From Polychytrium aggregatum (Eukaryota; Chytridiomycota; Chytridiomycetes; Polychytriales), in assembly GCF_025602895.1 (NCBI RefSeq), contig NW_026516407.1, positions 1 through 55,007 on the forward strand: 55,007 nucleotides of DNA, read 5' to 3'. The position numbers were made by a program, and so were the translations under genes. Below, piece after piece: positions 10,734 to 23,013 of the stretch. A model generated the notes under the pieces. The model ran no database searches. It was not told the DNA's origin and saw only the letters and a program-made list of their open reading frames with translations. The stretch's first letter is position 1. Every line of letters begins with the position of its first letter.

Positions 10734-11104
10734 TTGCTGAGCAGTGCTCATCAGCGTGGATCTCATTGAATGATGATCGGCGTGCATACTGTGACCATAT
10801 CCCTGGCTGCATCGATCTTGGTTTGTGGTGCAAGCAGATCGATGGATTGTGGCTCGCCGGCCACATCCTCTGCAGCGTGAGTACACCCTGCGAGATGTTG
10901 GACTATTCGACCGAGCATGCCGCCAATAGACCCGTGCAAGTCGCTCCTTCCTCGGGTGAAAGTAAAGCTGCTCTGAACAGCCAAGGAGCCTCGGGCGACA
11001 AACCCGGAGCCGGAACTGGAGCCGGAACTGGAACCAGAACCGTAGCCCTTGCTCTGATTCTACGGGATATATGTGCGTGCATTCACATCCAAACACACTT
11101 TATT
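10734..11104. other. Intergenic region left of the Fanzor element, with a short 12-bp tandem repeat
   Basis: This 371-bp gap follows the OMA1 stop and ends at the transposon. At about 11007-11042 there are three 12-bp units of the GGAGCCGGAACT type. The last about 20 bp (11085-11104) abut the transposon end. In TnpB/Fanzor systems the flank next to this end supplies the guide, so on the minus strand these bases would be the present guide of the element. Confidence 0.4.
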
Positions 11105-11121
11105 CAGAAAAAAACGGGACA
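11105..11121 (+). repeat. Left terminal repeat of Fanzor element copy 1
   Basis: The sequence CAGAAAAAAACGGGACA matches 16 of 17 bases of the end of copy 2 at 21315-21331. Its inner part AAAAAACGGGACA is repeated in inverted orientation at the right end of copy 1. Confidence 0.85.
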
Positions 11122-11193
11122 ATATAGCCGTTTCCATGAACATGTAGTATGTGCTGTGCTTGCGTCAAGCAAAGCCACAAGAAATAAAACAGA
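11122..11193 (-). ncRNA. Putative Fanzor guide-RNA (omega/fRNA) 3' scaffold segment
   Basis: The 72 bp between the Fanzor stop codon and the terminal repeat contain an imperfect hairpin at 11151-11178. The main stem is TGCTTG / CAAGCA with loop CGT, extended by CT/AG and GTG/CAC after mismatches. In characterised Fanzor and TnpB loci the guide RNA overlaps the 3' end of the nuclease gene and runs into the transposon end, so this segment is where it is expected. The RNA itself is inferred; no promoter or processing site can be seen. Confidence 0.45.
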
Positions 11194-13568
11194 TCACTTT
11201 GGCAGCCTCCGAGTGAAGACCGCCGGTCGCTCTCCGATCTCCACAATCGACCTGCACACTGTGATCATGTTGCGCGCCGCATTGACGTCGCGATTCCACA
11301 CTGTCCGGCAGCTGGGATTCTTGCAGCTCCTGACAAAGTGGGAATTCGCAACACTGGGCGCATCGAGTCCTTCCAACCGAACTGGCTCCAGGCACTTGGA
11401 GCACACTTGCGAGGTGTTGAACTCGTTCGTTGAGGCCACCTTGACGCTTCCATGATGGTGATTGGGACGGCGTCGGTGGTGCTCGAATTGCTCAAAGTAC
11501 CGAGCAAATCGCTGCCTCCGAGGGCTGGATGCATAGCCCTTGCCCTGTCGCCATGACGCATTGCCAAAGGCGATCACCACATCGGTCCGTATCGGGGCGT
11601 GCTTCAGGACGGCCTTGCACATCTTGTCAATGGCCACTTGGCGCCTCTTGTGGCCCGTGAATCGATGGTGACGGGCCTTCTTGCCAAGGTGGAAGTCGAG
11701 CTGCACTCGCAGCTCCGGTCGCAGGACATGGGTGAGATGGATCTTGAAAGCCTCCGAGGACGACACCTTGGGCGAGGGGGTGGTCGACATCCAGGTCTCG
11801 ATGCTGAGTCGATACTTCATGGTGTTGTGCCACTGGGTGTTGGACGTATGGCCACACATTTGCTGGTAGTGGCCATTGGAGAACGAGACCACCTCGTCTT
11901 GGTGGCCCGGTGCTTGGATGACCGCCGTGAAGATGGAGCCGACTCCAGGATCGATGCCAATCCAAGTGGTGCGATCGGGGTCTGGGTCGCCGATGTGGGT
12001 CTGGATGCGCTGTTCGGCAGTCGGAGGAGGCTCGATGGTCTCGGTGCGATCGGTTCGACGCAGAAACTTGACGAGACTGATGGTGCATCCAATGCCATCG
12101 GTGCTGATCTCGTAGTTGAACAGCTTCTTGTCCACGTCTCGCTCTTGGAAGAGGGAACTACGCAGCTTGAAGCAACTGCGCCAGAGACGATCCTGGTTGT
12201 TGATGCCGTCCTCACCTTCTTCCTTGAGCTTGTCCCGGGTGAGTCCAAGACGATGTTCGGTGTCAAGGAGTTGCCAGAGAGTGACCGTGTCGATCTTGAT
12301 GTACTTGGCCGTGGCAGTGCACAGAGGGACCATCGTGCACACGGCCGGAGGAGTGTCGAGAGCGAGCTGCTTCAGTGCCCACTTGATCCTGGATGCCAGC
12401 TTGTTGATCTTGGACTTGGTGGTGCCGAGCTCAGACTTGGCCGTGGTGAACCTCTTGTCGTCGGAGGGAATGCCTCGGGCAGTGAGCTCGTCCAGCTTGG
12501 CCTGGCGCTGCAGCTCGGTGACTCGGAGGGCGGGCATGTCACAGTCGATCCACTTGTGGACATTGTCGACCATCTTGTCCCGGGCGAGGATTCCCACATG
12601 GTGTGAGAGGCGATGGAGGGCCCGGAAGCGGTCCTGGTCGTTGCTGTACCGAAACTCGTCCAGGACGTGGCCAAAGTCTGGATAGAGGAACTCGAGATCG
12701 GCCTTGGGTGGAGTCTGCCCTGGTTTCTCGAAGAGCTCAAGACAGACCTCGATGGCTTCGTGCTTGTGCTTGTTGGCTGGGAAGACGGCAGCACAAAAGC
12801 GACGAAGGAGTCTCCAGTAGGCCAGGTCGAGGTGGGTGGTGCAGTTGGCAGCATAGGCATTGACAGCGAGTGTGAGAAGCTGACTGTGAGCACCATCAGG
12901 CAGACGAGGGGCCGGAGGCAGGTCTGCGTGCCGAGTGGTCTGGTAGTCGCGAAAGGATTTGATCAGATGCTCGTTGTATTTCTTGGTCTCCCCGGTCGGG
13001 GAGAGGGCACCGTCCTGGACGATCTTAAAGCACTGGCGGATGAAAGCAGGGGTGGCCCTGGAGATGACAGGGACGGGAAGATCCTGCTCGATGCACCGGA
13101 GGATGTGCAGGTTGAGCAGCCTGGATGCCTCGAACTGGATCTGGGTCATGGCCTCGACGGTGGCCTGGATCTTGTCGCGGAGAGCGGGATTGAGACAACA
13201 GCCATCTATCGTCTGCTTGAAGCAGCTGAACTGAGGGGCGGATGACCTTCCATCCACGAGTGGGACGACGGAGCTCTTGAGGGGCCGGTATTTGGGACAT
13301 TTGCTGGTGTTGCAACGTTCGTGATCGGTGCCATCGCACTGGCGACATCGCTTGCCGGTACTCGAGGAAGTAGATGGACCAGGCTCGGTGGGATCGACAC
13401 ATCCATTGGATCTGCAGAAGCAGTGGTGGTGAGCGACGGAGCAACAGACGACCAAGCATGCGTGGGGTCAGAATACGAACCAGAGACAGGCTCCGACTGT
13501 GACTTGGCTTTCTTGGGCCTGGGTGGCCGAGGCTGGCCATCACCGGCACCCTTGCGCTTCGGAGGCAT
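11194..13568 (-). CDS. Fanzor, eukaryotic TnpB-like RNA-guided nuclease homologue
   Basis: Fanzors are eukaryotic relatives of TnpB/Cas12; at least one fungal member cuts DNA guided by an RNA from its own locus. An uninterrupted frame covers 11194-13455. Visible features: an N-terminal zinc-knuckle-like CRQCDGTDHERC...CP; a long helical region; RuvC-I Asp in WIGIDPGVGS (codon 11950-11952); a VVIAFGNASW strand; the relocated catalytic Glu of Fanzors in TNEFNTSQVCSKC (codon 11422-11424); a C-terminal zinc finger CSKC...CKNPSC; and RuvC-III Asp in WNRDVNAARNM (codon 11287-11289). All expected catalytic residues are present. The likely true start is the ATG at 13568 in another frame, giving MPPKRK...RPKKAK (nuclear-localisation-like). 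The switch between frames, near 13370-13440, needs a small intron or is a frameshift. The gene lies downstream of, and co-directional with, the transposase. Confidence 0.9.
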
Positions 13569-13819
13569 GGGGCAGAGGATGCTGGATGCCTGCCAGTGGT
13601 ACTGGTCAGAACAGAGACTTTTTTTTATCGTACAATGGCGCGATGATCCGATCAAGGCGAGATGAGGGAAGAAAGCAGCAGGACGAAGGTGTGGCATTTA
13701 TACCCGAGAGCAGGAGCCCGTCTTTGCGGGCTGGTTGGGGAAGTGACCCTGTTCAAAAATCGCCGAGAGGTTCAAGCCAGGGATGTGAACGCGAAAATGG
13801 CGGCTCGATTGGAGGGAAC

Positions 13820-14752
13820 TCAACCCCAGAAGCGCATCGCTCGCTCAATCAGCCGTGGGAAGACATCTGGAAGCACCCTCCGAACGGCAGACTCGAACAG
13901 GGTCACCATCCCGACCCTGAACCCCTCTGACGCATTCAGCGCTGCCATCTTCCTGTATTGACGCTTCACAATCCCAAAGAAGTTCTCGATGGGATTGAAG
14001 TCGGGCGAGGCAGGTGGGGTGAAGATCACTGACCATCCTCGGCGCTCGATGCAGTCCAGGACAGCAATTGTCTTGTGCATGCTGACATTGTCCATCACAA
14101 TCACAGAGTCGTCTGGGAAGCTCGCTCGCTCAAAGAACTCGACCATCGAGTGTGTCTTGAATGATGTGGGTATGTACATGCGATGCAGCACACCAGAGTG
14201 GTTGATGGCAAATGCAGCCGAGACAGACTTGTGTTTCATGTGATTGCGCTGGCGAAGCGGAGCACCCTTCGGTGAGTATCCGTAGAGAGGGAAAATGGAT
14301 CTCCTGATCCCCGTCTCATCGACAAAAACGAATCGTCGTGGGTCGATGGAGCGGACCTGGTCCCTGAACTGTGCCACTCGCTCATCCAGTCGCTTGGACT
14401 TGTAGAGGTGTGTTGCCCTCTTGTGTGAGAGACCTGCTCGGTGGATGGCAGTGTGGCAGAGCGAGAGCGACACTTTCCTCTGGAGGATGGACTCGAGCTT
14501 GCACCGCAACACAGGACCAGTCTGGAACGGGTCCTGTTCAATCAGGGTGCGAATGACTGGACATGCCTGCTCGAAGAAAGTGGATCTGCGAGCTGGGACC
14601 CGGGATGGGTCATCCAGCTTGCATCCTCGGTGCCATCGATGGATGGTGCTCTTGGATACACTGAATATGGAGGCGACCTTACGCAGGCTATGGATGAGGG
14701 CGTAGCATCGCAATGCGGCGGTGCGAAAGTCGGATGTGTGGCGAATGGTCAT
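13820..14752 (-). CDS. DD34E transposase of the Tc1/mariner-IS630 superfamily (DDE_3)
   Basis: The 310-residue single-exon frame encodes the cut-and-paste transposase of the element. Residues about 15-50 form a helix-turn-helix (SLRKVASIFSVSKSTIHRW). The RNase H-like core carries the first catalytic Asp in FVFVDETGIRRS, the second in VIVMDNVSMH and the Glu in DFNPIENFFG, with exactly 34 residues between the second Asp and the Glu. This spacing is typical of Tc1/IS630-like enzymes. The C-terminus ends IERAMRFWG. It sits upstream of Fanzor on the same strand with a 251-bp gap. No stops or frameshifts are seen, so it may be functional. The last 15 codons recur in copy 2 at 22229-22276. Confidence 0.92.
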   Translation of the reverse strand: MTIRHTSDFRTAALRCYALIHSLRKVASIFSVSKSTIHRWHRGCKLDDPSRVPARRSTFFEQACPVIRTLIEQDPFQTGPVLRCKLESILQRKVSLSLCHTAIHRAGLSHKRATHLYKSKRLDERVAQFRDQVRSIDPRRFVFVDETGIRRSIFPLYGYSPKGAPLRQRNHMKHKSVSAAFAINHSGVLHRMYIPTSFKTHSMVEFFERASFPDDSVIVMDNVSMHKTIAVLDCIERRGWSVIFTPPASPDFNPIENFFGIVKRQYRKMAALNASEGFRVGMVTLFESAVRRVLPDVFPRLIERAMRFWG

Positions 14753-14810
14753 GGCCAGCGCGCGATAACATTGGGTAACAAAATATTCGATGAATGGTCA
14801 AAAACCCGGG

Positions 14811-14824
14811 TGTCCCGTTTTTTA
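14811..14824 (-). repeat. Right terminal repeat of Fanzor element copy 1
   Basis: Read on the minus strand this is TAAAAAACGGGACA, the inverted partner of 11109-11121 with a TA at its outer edge. It lies 58 bp upstream of the transposase start codon. The bases just outside (minus-strand reading ends ...CCAA then TA) are where a target-adjacent motif would be expected. Confidence 0.82.
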
Positions 14825-15659
14825 TTGGATTGCCTGTACTACAAGACACTGCCCCATTTCGGCTGAAGGTGTGGTCTGTAGTCAGTATCAATCGAATATG
14901 TAGTTCAACAATGGCATCTGCAAAACAAGCTGATCATCTCGGCGGTCTGCGAATAAAGTCCATGGGTCCAGCAGCAGCCATGATGCTTCACGCGACATGC
15001 CCACGCGTGCAGGGCAAACCTCGTCGGTGAATGTGCTTGGGTTGTCCTCTGATAGTGGCTTTGGAATCGAGATATGTCCGGCATCGTCGATCTGCTGGGG
15101 AGTGGGGGTTGGCCGATGATGACGTTTGGCGGCCGCTGATTCATAGCGCTGCCAGCGATGGCTGACATCACCTGGCCGGCAGCATCGAGGGCGAGGCCAC
15201 AATGGCCATATATCCCCCCCGTTTGCGGGCTGAATCAGGGTTCTGACCGAGCAGGATCCGATGCAACCTGCGACCCTTCGCCTGTCTTGCGCCCGAACGG
15301 ACTGCTGCCTCTCCAAAAACGACATATCTCTTGGACGCCCACAGACGACACACTGATTCTGGGTTGTGGCATCAGGCTGAGACTGAGCGGCTGAACGACA
15401 GGCAGTAAGCTATCAAAGCCGACTTCAAGCCATCTGTGACATTTGCCAGCATCCGAGCATTCATCGCTTGTGCCTACTGCGTCCTCATCCCCCTCGCCGC
15501 TCCAATATCCGGTCCGTCCTATCCGCGCGCCAACTCGCTTTATGGCGAGTACCCATCGGCTGAGCCGCCAGCGCAACATCGAAAAGGCAGCTGCGACGAC
15601 ATCAACACCAGCAATAGTAGCGACAACGACAGCAACGGCGACAAAGCCACAGCAAGAGC
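14825..15659. other. Intergenic region right of the Fanzor element; no gene seen
   Basis: These 835 bp separate the transposon from the start codon of the next plus-strand gene and should include its promoter and 5' UTR. Open frames on both strands have no recognisable similarity. No repeat or RNA gene was seen. Confidence 0.4.
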
Positions 15660-20958: not shown

Positions 20959-21314
20959 GGATGGGATGGAGGGCGGTCCTGGTCGATCAGAAGCCAGGGT
21001 CGGCGACAGAAACGACACAATGAAAAAAATTGTTGTTAATAAAATGAGCGAGAACGACAAAACGCGCTCTCGGAGCCACCTCGGTCGGCGAGAAGAGCAG
21101 TCTCTGGCGAGAGACCCCCGAGGGAAGGCGAGAAACCTCTCGCCGTCACACACACACACACTTTGCACACACACACTTTGCAAGGGAGTCAAACACCTCC
21201 CATCGACCATCCCAAGAGGGACGGTAACCCCGAAGTGGACTGCCCAGAATATGGGCGACCCGGCATCCACTGTCGACATACTCAAGGAACAGTGCGAGAT
21301 ACTTACAGTCAATC
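20959..21314. other. Intergenic region between TRS20 and Fanzor copy 2
   Basis: This is the 356-bp 5' flank of TRS20 up to the transposon relic. It contains CA-rich dinucleotide runs at about 21148-21180 in two blocks separated by CTTTG. The TRS20 promoter should lie here. No gene was seen. Confidence 0.4.
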
Positions 21315-21331
21315 CAGAAATAAACGGGACA
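21315..21331 (+). repeat. Left terminal repeat of Fanzor element copy 2
   Basis: CAGAAATAAACGGGACA differs at one base from 11105-11121 of copy 1. The TA inside it (21321-21322) is consistent with TA target use. Confidence 0.82.
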
Positions 21332-21341
21332 GTCACTTTCT

Positions 21342-21361
21342 GGCTTCAGATGTCTGAAGCC
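21342..21361 (-). ncRNA. Perfect hairpin at the 3' end of Fanzor copy 2 (candidate guide-RNA element)
   Basis: GGCTTCAGA, TG, TCTGAAGCC forms a perfect 9-bp stem with a 2-nt loop, 10 bp inside the terminal repeat. The Fanzor stop codon (21346-21348) lies within the stem, so coding and structure overlap. Position matches the hairpin of copy 1 and the expected guide-RNA 3' scaffold. The RNA role is inferred. Confidence 0.4.
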
Positions 21362-22158
21362 CACTGACTGACTGTAGGCCCAGCGGGCAGGCCATGGCAT
21401 TGCACTCCTGTCTTGGTTGGCAATCTCTTTGTTTTTGTTGGTTTCGGGAGCACAGTCTTGAATACACCCGGTCGATCTCCTGTGGCGATGATCGACTGGC
21501 ATACCGAGATCATGTTCCGTGAGGCATTGATGTCTCGATCCCACAGCGTATGGCAGCTTGCACAGCTCCGGACAAAGTGTGGTTTCTCGACATCAAGATA
21601 CTCAACCTTCTCGAGTCGCTTGGCTTCCCGACAATGTGAGCACACCTGGGATGTGTTGAACTCGTTCACCGAGCACACATGGATCTTGGAGACGGATGGG
21701 TCTGGTGGTCGTCTCTGGTGGTGGTGGAACTGCTCAAAGTACTTGGCAAACCTGAGTCTCCTGGGACGGATGCATATCCCTTCCCCTGTTTCCAGGATGC
21801 ATTCCCAAAGGCAATCACCACTTCGGTCTCCTTTGGTGCCTGGTCGATGACTTGCTTGCACATCTCGTGGACGGTGCGCTGTCGCTTGCTGTGGAGATCC
21901 AGTCGCTTGAATCGCCGTCGCCGGGTCAGGCTGAAGTACAGCTGTTTGTCCAGCATGTCTCCATCGAACACATGGCGAATGTATTGCAGGAAGGAAGCCA
22001 ACCCGGGGATCTTGGGACTTGGTGTGGTGCTCATCCATTCCTGCAGATCAAGGGCCTTGTGGGTGCTCTGGATCCACTTGGTCGCCTGGGTGGTGTCTTT
22101 CGCTTGTGGGGAGCCATCTGGCGAGAAAATAGCGACGATGGCTGGTTCTGCCCTTGTG
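21346..22158 (-). pseudogene. Fanzor pseudogene, C-terminal portion with a frameshift
   Basis: The fragment aligns with the last third of the copy 1 protein: EWMSTTPSPK, VVIAFGNASWKQGKGYAS, then after a frame change FAKYFEQFHHHQRRP, the Fanzor Glu motif VNEFNTSQVCSHC, the zinc finger and the RuvC-III Asp in WDRDINASRNM. A one-base deletion relative to copy 1 near 21750-21772 breaks the frame after GKGYAS. The N-terminal region with RuvC-I (GIDPG) is absent, so no active nuclease can be made. The C-terminus runs about 31 residues beyond copy 1 and stops 14 bp from the terminal repeat. Divergence from copy 1 (for example DRDINASRNMISVCQSI versus NRDVNAARNMITVCRSI) shows they are not recent duplicates. 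Confidence 0.88.
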
Positions 22159-22228
22159 GAAGAAAAATTTTCCTCAAAACCAGCGCATTTTTGGGCTGGC
22201 AGAGATACTGCACAGTGGCGTCCTTGAT

Positions 22229-22276
22229 TCAGATCCAGAAACGCATCGCTCGCTCAATCAGTCGTGGGAAGACATC
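22229..22276 (-). pseudogene. Transposase remnant: last 15 codons
   Basis: Read on the minus strand this gives DVFPRLIERAMRFWI and a stop, matching the DVFPRLIERAMRFWG end of the copy 1 transposase. Similarity stops abruptly upstream, marking a deletion or insertion breakpoint. Confidence 0.8.
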
Positions 22277-23013
22277 TTGTCAAGGTGAGTCTTGCCTGAT
22301 AGCCAAACGATCATGTCATCTCGCTGACACACAGCCACGCTTGACTCGGTTTCCAACCAGAGATTCAGATGGTGGTGGTTCTTGTCCGCAATCGGAGTGG
22401 AGCTTCCAACAATGATACAATTGGTCATTCCTCCACACCAATTGCCCACCACCACCGTCAATCGGCTCAAGGTGATACCAAATGCCGTCAACCGACCATG
22501 GCCGGATTCCAATTTTGCTGCCCACATACAACGTGACTTTCAGGTGACCGAGATGAGCAGCCGTGAGGGGTCGGAAAAAATCGATAGAGCGATGTGCGTT
22601 TCGGCATGTCTGGGATGGCGTTCGCCCTCTCGCCCCGCTCTCGCCGAGGAGCAGGCTCGTGCGCAGCGGTCTGCCTTCCTTTCTGGGTTGCTTGACGCTT
22701 TTGTGTTGGCCAAGGCACCCACGAACAGATCCATGACTTGGTCCACCCACGCTGAAACGGGATGCTTGGCAGGTGTGCCCAAGCGAACAGACGGATAGCG
22801 GCGTGCTTGGTCTGTCGTCCATAGAACGATCCCGTGTACAGGACCAGGTCGTGTTGCCCAAGAGCATTCGCTGTCATCCGAAACAGGGGTGGTGATGGTG
22901 GAGAGCATTTTCTTGACAGGCGTGGGAAGAAGTCACCTCCCTCGTCCATACCGAAGCCAGTGCGATTCGATTGACTGGGCCTCAGCTCCACACGGATAGA
23001 GAAAGACAGAGCC
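22277..23013. other. Intergenic region downstream of CDK11; no gene seen
   Basis: These 737 bp lie between the transposon relic and the 3' end of the CDK11 gene. Open frames on the minus strand continue past the CDK11 stop in other phases but show no family similarity. This stretch may include degraded sequence from the right part of element copy 2, which I could not recognise. Confidence 0.4.

Follow-up and report, generated by a model that had tools for sequence, protein, structure and literature searches.

The locus and its ends

The DNA examined here, referred to as the window, is a stretch of 55,007 nucleotides from the chytrid Polychytrium aggregatum (NCBI RefSeq assembly GCF_025602895.1, contig NW_026516407.1, positions 1 to 55,007), which is contig C119 of a genome of 64.7 Mb in 418 contigs. 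Judged by its sequence, one region of the window is a damaged copy of a multicopy Tc1/mariner-IS630 transposon with a gene for a Fanzor1-type nuclease. The element is 3741 bp long and has two genes on the minus strand, with the transposase first and the Fanzor gene second (Table 1). All coordinates refer to the whole window, and "Fanzor sense" denotes the minus strand.

The ends of the element were defined from an alignment of 40 copies. Read in Fanzor sense, it starts with CAGG and finishes with GTG inside flanking TA dinucleotides, and its terminal sequences are CAGGCAATCCAATAAAAAACGGGACA on one side and TGTCCCGTTTTTTTCTGAATAAAGTG on the other. Both inverted ends share an identical core of 13 nt, AAAAAACGGGACA, outside which the two terminal inverted repeats (TIRs) are unlike each other. 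An earlier annotation made from the letters alone, called here the sequence-only reading, had placed both genes on one strand between matching ends at 11105 and 14824. The common strand and the inverted ends were retained, but the borders had to be moved by 9 and 12 nt, as other copies of the element give 11096 and 14836.

Table 1. Features of the Fanzor-carrying transposon in the window
Feature	Position	Strand	Remark
Whole transposon	11096..14836	-	Ends common to 40 aligned copies
3' TIR; final bases GTG are the element 3' end	11096..11121	-	Terminal GTG in 39/40 copies
5' TIR, CAGGCAATCCAATAAAAAACGGGACA	14811..14836	-	CAGG in 33/40 copies
TA duplication, 5' side; preceded by AG in Fanzor sense (AGTA), DTTA in most copies	14837..14838	.	
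Decayed TA duplication, 3' side; CA on the plus strand, TG in Fanzor sense	11094..11095	.	
Transposase, 310 aa, DD34E (D145, D221, E256), IS630/Tc1-mariner type	13820..14752	-	
Fanzor gene with ATG at 13568-13566; a 2-nt insertion at ~13397-13399 breaks its frame	11194..13568	-	
753-codon open frame, Fanzor minus its true N-terminus; TDG 452-454, D502 (DPG), E678, zinc finger, D723	11194..13455	-	
TATA-box-like TATAAA, ~135 bp upstream of the Fanzor ATG; putative function	13697..13702	-	Consensus element position 1135
3' 214 nt also present in the ghosts L065 and L066; predicted to contain the guide-RNA scaffold	11096..11309	-	
Predicted guide of the window copy, 15 nt past the duplication, by analogy with published Fanzor1 RNAs	11079..11093	-	

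The transposase

The transposase matches the NCBIfam IS630 profile NF033545 at 123.2 bits (cut-off 100) and also contains the Pfam DDE_3 domain. The catalytic triad named in the sequence-only reading is intact, with 34 residues between D221 and E256. Among the matches listed, 83 of 88 distinct 3' flanks start with TA, and the window copy has one decayed duplication. By these profile matches and residues, the protein is classified as a Tc1/mariner-IS630 transposase with a DD34E triad. It resembles other IS630/Tc1-mariner transposases in its DD34E triad, DDE_3 domain and TA duplications, whereas the element here adds a nuclease gene beside the transposase.

The Fanzor protein

The second gene was analyzed through its 753-codon open frame, whose residue numbers are used throughout. 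This frame matches the Pfam Cas12f1-like TNB domain at 36.4 bits (cut-off 26.3), which places it within the TnpB/Fanzor superfamily, but it scores only 25.4 bits with NCBIfam guided_TnpB, below the curated cut-off of 100. In our reading, such a score is expected for a divergent Fanzor1. A search of solved structures with the single sequence returned SpuFz1 at E 0.75, and a profile of the frame and its homologue P0002 returned SpuFz1 at E 5e-5, in an alignment that pairs the catalytic Glu and Asp of the two proteins. In that profile alignment, with residues counted by hand against the numbering of PMC10432273, E678 and D723 fall on E541 and D606 of SpuFz1, which the same source gives as two of its metal ligands. 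The TNB match above its cut-off and the SpuFz1 profile match bear out the Fanzor identity proposed from the sequence.

RuvC-I D502, the relocated E678, RuvC-III D723 and the C4 zinc finger, all named before, were all found in the frame. The Fanzor1 motif D-X(125,275)-[TS]-[TS]-X-X-[C4 zinc finger]-X(5,50)-RD, as printed in PMC3627910, is present as D502, 178 residues, T681-S682-Q-V-C685, a finger of C685/C688/C711/C716, 5 residues and R722-D723. The DPG (D502-P503-G504) and alternative-Glu (E678) RuvC signatures of Fanzor1 given in PMC10711439 are also present. A TDG motif, described in that source as a WED-domain motif, lies at T452-D453-G454 and occurs in P0002 as well. Residence in a eukaryotic transposon other than IS607, a further mark of Fanzor1, applies to this DD34E element with TA duplications.

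P0002, a 717-aa protein from a protein collection, has 30% identity over 95% of the query. It has the same zinc knuckle, TDG, DPG, relocated Glu and RD, and it differs in sitting on a 2875-base contig. Two protein searches returned P0002 alone, and two scans of viral contigs returned no homologue. AlphaFold2 run on the two-sequence alignment gave a mean pLDDT (predicted local distance difference test) of 35.9, too low for conclusions about the fold. Taken together, the profile matches and the motifs support the assignment of the gene as a Fanzor1-type nuclease. A Cys/His cluster (CRQC...H...C...C) at residues 37-53, near the N-terminus, is partly retained in P0002.

Damage to the window copy

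The window element had been described as apparently complete, and this description fails for its Fanzor gene and for one of its duplications. A 2-nt insertion near the Fanzor N-terminus (Table 1) is peculiar to the window copy when compared with the 39 other copies. In those copies the gene starts at an ATG matching 13568-13566, and in the window this frame is lost after ~57 codons. The TTG-started frame of 753 codons, taken as the gene by the sequence-only reading, exists because the insertion breaks the natural frame, and a TTG start is not supported. The 3' TA duplication reads CA, and the 5' flank reads AGTA where L035, which occupies this site on a different contig, has ATTA. A 64-nt GT..AG intron that would restore the frame was considered and rejected, as the consensus of 40 copies reads through without it; therefore, the window copy itself is frameshifted.

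Copies of the element in the genome

A search of the same genome for further copies, scoring the best 40 of 1313 DNA candidates, recovered 39 besides the window copy, and the alignment of their edges redefined the borders. The longest matches are 95-97% identical. With 39 additional copies, the arrangement is therefore more than chance. A Fanzor search gave 48 matches without a stop codon among the 60 best (of 1477 candidates), and a transposase search gave 129 matches from 128 of 539 candidates scored.

Exact-pattern searches of the genome found at least 130 5' ends and at least 199 3' ends; these counts are lower bounds because neither pattern allows G at the outermost position. On contigs C1-C172, 37 of 63 5' ends pair with an exact 3' end. 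Eighteen of the paired elements are 3730-3741 bp long, 13 are 3478-3654 bp, one is 1110 bp and five are 308-381 bp. Two of the short forms, L065 and L066, are alike, with ~100 nt of the 5' end fused to the last 214 nt.

A second Fanzor relic lies in the window itself at 21306-22277 on the minus strand. Its BLAST matches to the element are pieces of 195 nt at 75%, 68 nt at 78% and 43 nt of the transposase end at 95%. The relic has open frames that encode NEFNTSQVC and a zinc finger, and a 3' end of a second type, termed family B, inside TA.

Besides many intact copies of Fanzor elements from two related families, the genome has ghosts and site-matched haplotypes. The sequence-only reading called intact pairs with defined ends few; within this single genome the copies are many. 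The family of the window element, termed family A, is a real and well-formed Fanzor1-mariner family of which the window copy is a broken member.

One-sided motifs at the insertion sites

Flanks of family A were collected from 100 of 130 5' ends, giving 78 distinct flanks, and from 100 of 199 3' ends, giving 88 distinct flanks, of which five not starting with TA were dropped to leave 83. Among these listed matches, T precedes TA on the 5' side in 74 of the 78 distinct flanks, against a window background of 13%, and the four-base flanks are ATTA (35), TTTA (24), GTTA (12) and CTTA (3). The base before that T is C in only 3 of 78, against a background of 25%. On the 3' side, A follows TA in 19 of the 83 listed distinct flanks.

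Within the retrieved set, 36 of 40 copies have TTA before the element. The four others are the window copy (L001, whose partner L035 has TTA), L007 and L008 (both AATA) and L020 (TTG); a place with the same flank as L020, C44:66779, reads TTA.

Family B has an unlike 5' end, CAGCGTTTCC, found at 84 places with 54 distinct flanks. Here, A or T precedes TA in 50 of the 54 (T in 33, A in 17), that is, WTA, and on the 3' side A or T is found in 25 of 46 distinct flanks (from 100 of 138 3' ends). The two motifs differ, with T in 33/54 for family B vs 74/78 for family A (p 2e-6). TA is palindromic, and a one-sided preference that differs by family points to something that reads the site with direction. 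From this comparison of flanks, the motifs are best read as predicted Fanzor target-adjacent motifs, DTTA (D being A, G or T) in family A and WTA (W being A or T) in family B.

A family with the pattern TACAGTC..TCCAGAAA was considered as a Fanzor-free control for these flanks and was rejected, as L067 carries Fanzor C-terminal pieces and the pattern marks 3' ends that belong to a related family of Fanzor elements. As a separate observation, 43 of 100 listed family-B-type 3' ends share a flank like AAGATACTTA, so many of these ends are part of a single amplified repeat. A close match to this flank, GAGATACTTA, stands beside the window relic (21295-21310).

Conservation of the two genes

An intact Fanzor frame is present in 33 of the 40 copies; five have stops and two, including the window copy, are frameshifted. 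The transposase frame is intact in 17, with gaps of at least 10 nt in 19 and small lesions in four. No Fanzor gene has a gap of that size (0/40 vs 19/40), despite its being 2.5 times as long as the transposase gene, and Fanzor is intact in 15 of the 19 transposase-gapped copies.

When all variants are counted, the ratio of nonsynonymous to synonymous variation (pN/pS) is 0.31 in Fanzor and 0.27 in the transposase. Ratios for singletons were computed on 36 copies after removal of four same-site duplicates. In the transposase-gapped copies, the singleton ratio is 0.38 for Fanzor vs 0.68 for the transposase remnants. Variation along the Fanzor gene is uneven in the 40-copy alignment, with ~0.135 synonymous changes per codon per copy in codons 400-440 and 0.006-0.009 in codons 720-760 and 120-160.

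Insertion sites, shorter forms and probable exchange between copies

Two joined-flank searches (22 and 16 sites, the best 40 candidates scored in each) found an empty allele at 0 of 38 sites. Junction-crossing matches were returned for L036 (90%, query 1100-1185), at occupied places, and for L028 (two at 86%); in both cases the cause is that the 3' neighbour is itself the 5' end of a related element. Head-to-tail insertion at the 5' ends of related elements was examined as a pattern of its own and dropped, since the strict pattern occurs at 4 places, apparently 2 sites, which is too few.

A shorter form stands at the same site on a second contig for L038 (C246, ~310 bp, sequenced as L065). Two more were inferred from flank spacing alone, L026 with C156 (~300 bp) and L028 with C383 (~1.1 kb). 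In five site-matched pairs the flanks are 94-100% identical over ~500 bp per side, yet the interiors differ at 75, 40, 98, 170 and 1 places; the value of 170 belongs to L001/L035 and includes a few edge alignment errors. The pairs L001/L035, L002/L003, L007/L008 and L019/L021 are those with 40-170 internal differences. Between 85 and 100% of the same-site differences are variants also seen in other copies (88% for random pairs), and all four combinations occur at 94 of 189 adjacent informative sites. These internal differences are explained by exchange between copies, and mis-polished repeats in the assembly would explain part of them.

Two further arrangements were seen at single loci. At ~5240-5470 of L006, the 3' end of the element is followed by 11 target bases, a ghost without its first bases and the same target bases again, which looks like a repair joint; this ghost has a 5' end like that of family A fused to a 3' end like that of family B. 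The window element's 5' flank (TGTCTTGTA..) is present on three contigs, C119, C372 and C346, and some regions may therefore exist in more than two versions in the assembly.

Proposed mechanism and alternatives

The favoured interpretation, to which we give a probability of about 0.7, is that each transposon copy carries a guide from its own flank and that the Fanzor nuclease cuts empty sites in a DTTA-dependent manner, after which they are refilled by repair. The transposase would excise the element at its TIRs and insert it at TA. A structured RNA made of the element 3' end, TA and ~15 nt of the neighbour would form the end of the Fanzor mRNA or of a transcript of its own. This RNA would include the flank of the element, and therefore each copy would carry the guide for its own insertion site. 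The scaffold is predicted to end in GUG-UA, with the ~15 nt of the 3' neighbour as guide. For Fanzor1 elements, PMC10711439 places the duplication in the RNA scaffold and the start of the guide after it. In SpuFz1, CA and the TA that follows it ahead of the 5' end make up the motif CATA, which the nuclease required in the assay reported in PMC10432273.

The nuclease would then cut guide-matched sequence lying after DTTA, either at the empty site after excision or on an unoccupied homologous chromosome, and repair from an occupied copy would restore the element. Where the element is present, its terminal G makes the four bases ahead of the guide TGTA, so the donor lacks the motif and would be spared. 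A broader proposal, that Fanzor is a site-retention or homing device shaping the whole family and leaving visible repair scars at its sites, is more tentative and in our view somewhat doubtful. The scars cited for it are the 0 of 38 empty sites, full-length and internally deleted forms at one site, and divergent interiors within near-identical flanks.

Several observations weigh against the favoured interpretation. No empty allele was recovered in the joined-flank searches, so the target origin of the T in DTTA is something we infer, and the missing empty sites may reflect old insertions common to closely related contigs. A after TA is slightly in excess on the 3' side (19/83 vs 13% background, p 0.015), and Fanzor-free elements of the same transposase were not found as a flank control. 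The 40 copies are the best DNA matches and thus a non-random sample. In transposase-intact copies, singleton pN/pS is 0.50 for Fanzor vs 0.32 for the transposase, that is, no stronger constraint on Fanzor, and the contrast in gapped copies has a Fisher p of 0.09 for singletons (not significant) and 0.02 for variants seen at most twice (modest). Single-sequence folds of the 3' end gave z from -1.0 to -3.3 by length against plain letter shuffles, a weak signal; RNAalifold predicted no consensus pairs for 12 3' ends, and Rfam gave no match at gathering thresholds. The guide RNA, the motif and the cleavage are predicted.

The flank preference could instead come from the transposase, whose paired-end complex, built on unlike ends, would read the target asymmetrically and leave Fanzor irrelevant to location. 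We consider this unlikely, even though the TIRs do differ outside their core, families A and B combine different 5' ends with different motifs, and a Fanzor-free control is missing. As TA is palindromic, a transposase preference for T on one side predicts A on the other, and that preference is weak at most among the matches listed; the SpuFz1 flank is equally one-sided, and there the nuclease needs the motif (PMC10432273).

Still less probable is that the T before TA belongs to the 5' end of the element, so that the flank motif would be uninformative about the nuclease. The 0 of 38 empty alleles would fit such an end, but the base one position further out is selected as well (A, T or G, with C in 3/78 among the matches listed), and family B has T or A directly before TA, as would be expected of a recognised target more than of a fixed end. 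It is equally improbable that Fanzor is a functionless passenger copied along with the transposon. The similar all-variant pN/pS of the two genes, the looser singletons of Fanzor in transposase-intact copies and the stops in 12 of the 60 best Fanzor matches would suit a passenger, yet pN/pS is well under 1 in all classes, the large deletions fall in the shorter transposase gene alone, and the catalytic residues of Fanzor are retained.

Relation to known Fanzor elements and significance

Elements of this kind were already known, because Fanzor1 genes paired with a mariner-type transposase in one element, PUl-1 and PGv-1, were published in 2013 (Bao and Jurka, PMC3627910). As described there, they share with the present element a Fanzor1, a mariner-type transposase, TIRs and TA duplications. 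PGv-1 is set apart by its description, with an extra endonuclease gene and a single copy, whereas the element here has two genes and many copies. SPu-1 of Spizellomyces punctatus, which encodes SpuFz1, also has a Fanzor1, TIRs, TA duplications and ghosts sharing the 3' end, according to the accounts in PMC3627910 and PMC10432273. Conserved bases likewise stand before its 5' end only, and its E541 and D606 are the residues aligned with E678 and D723. SPu-1 is described as a one-gene element of ~2.1 kb, whereas the present element has its own transposase; the motif is CATA in SpuFz1 vs the predicted DTTA here, and the proteins match weakly (the profile match above).

The role of Fanzors for their transposons is still argued, and two families in one genome are a natural experiment on this point. 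The predicted motif can be read from the flanks before any assay, and it differs between the two families of one genome. If this reading is true, the flanks of multicopy Fanzor elements would offer a general way to read their motifs from sequence.

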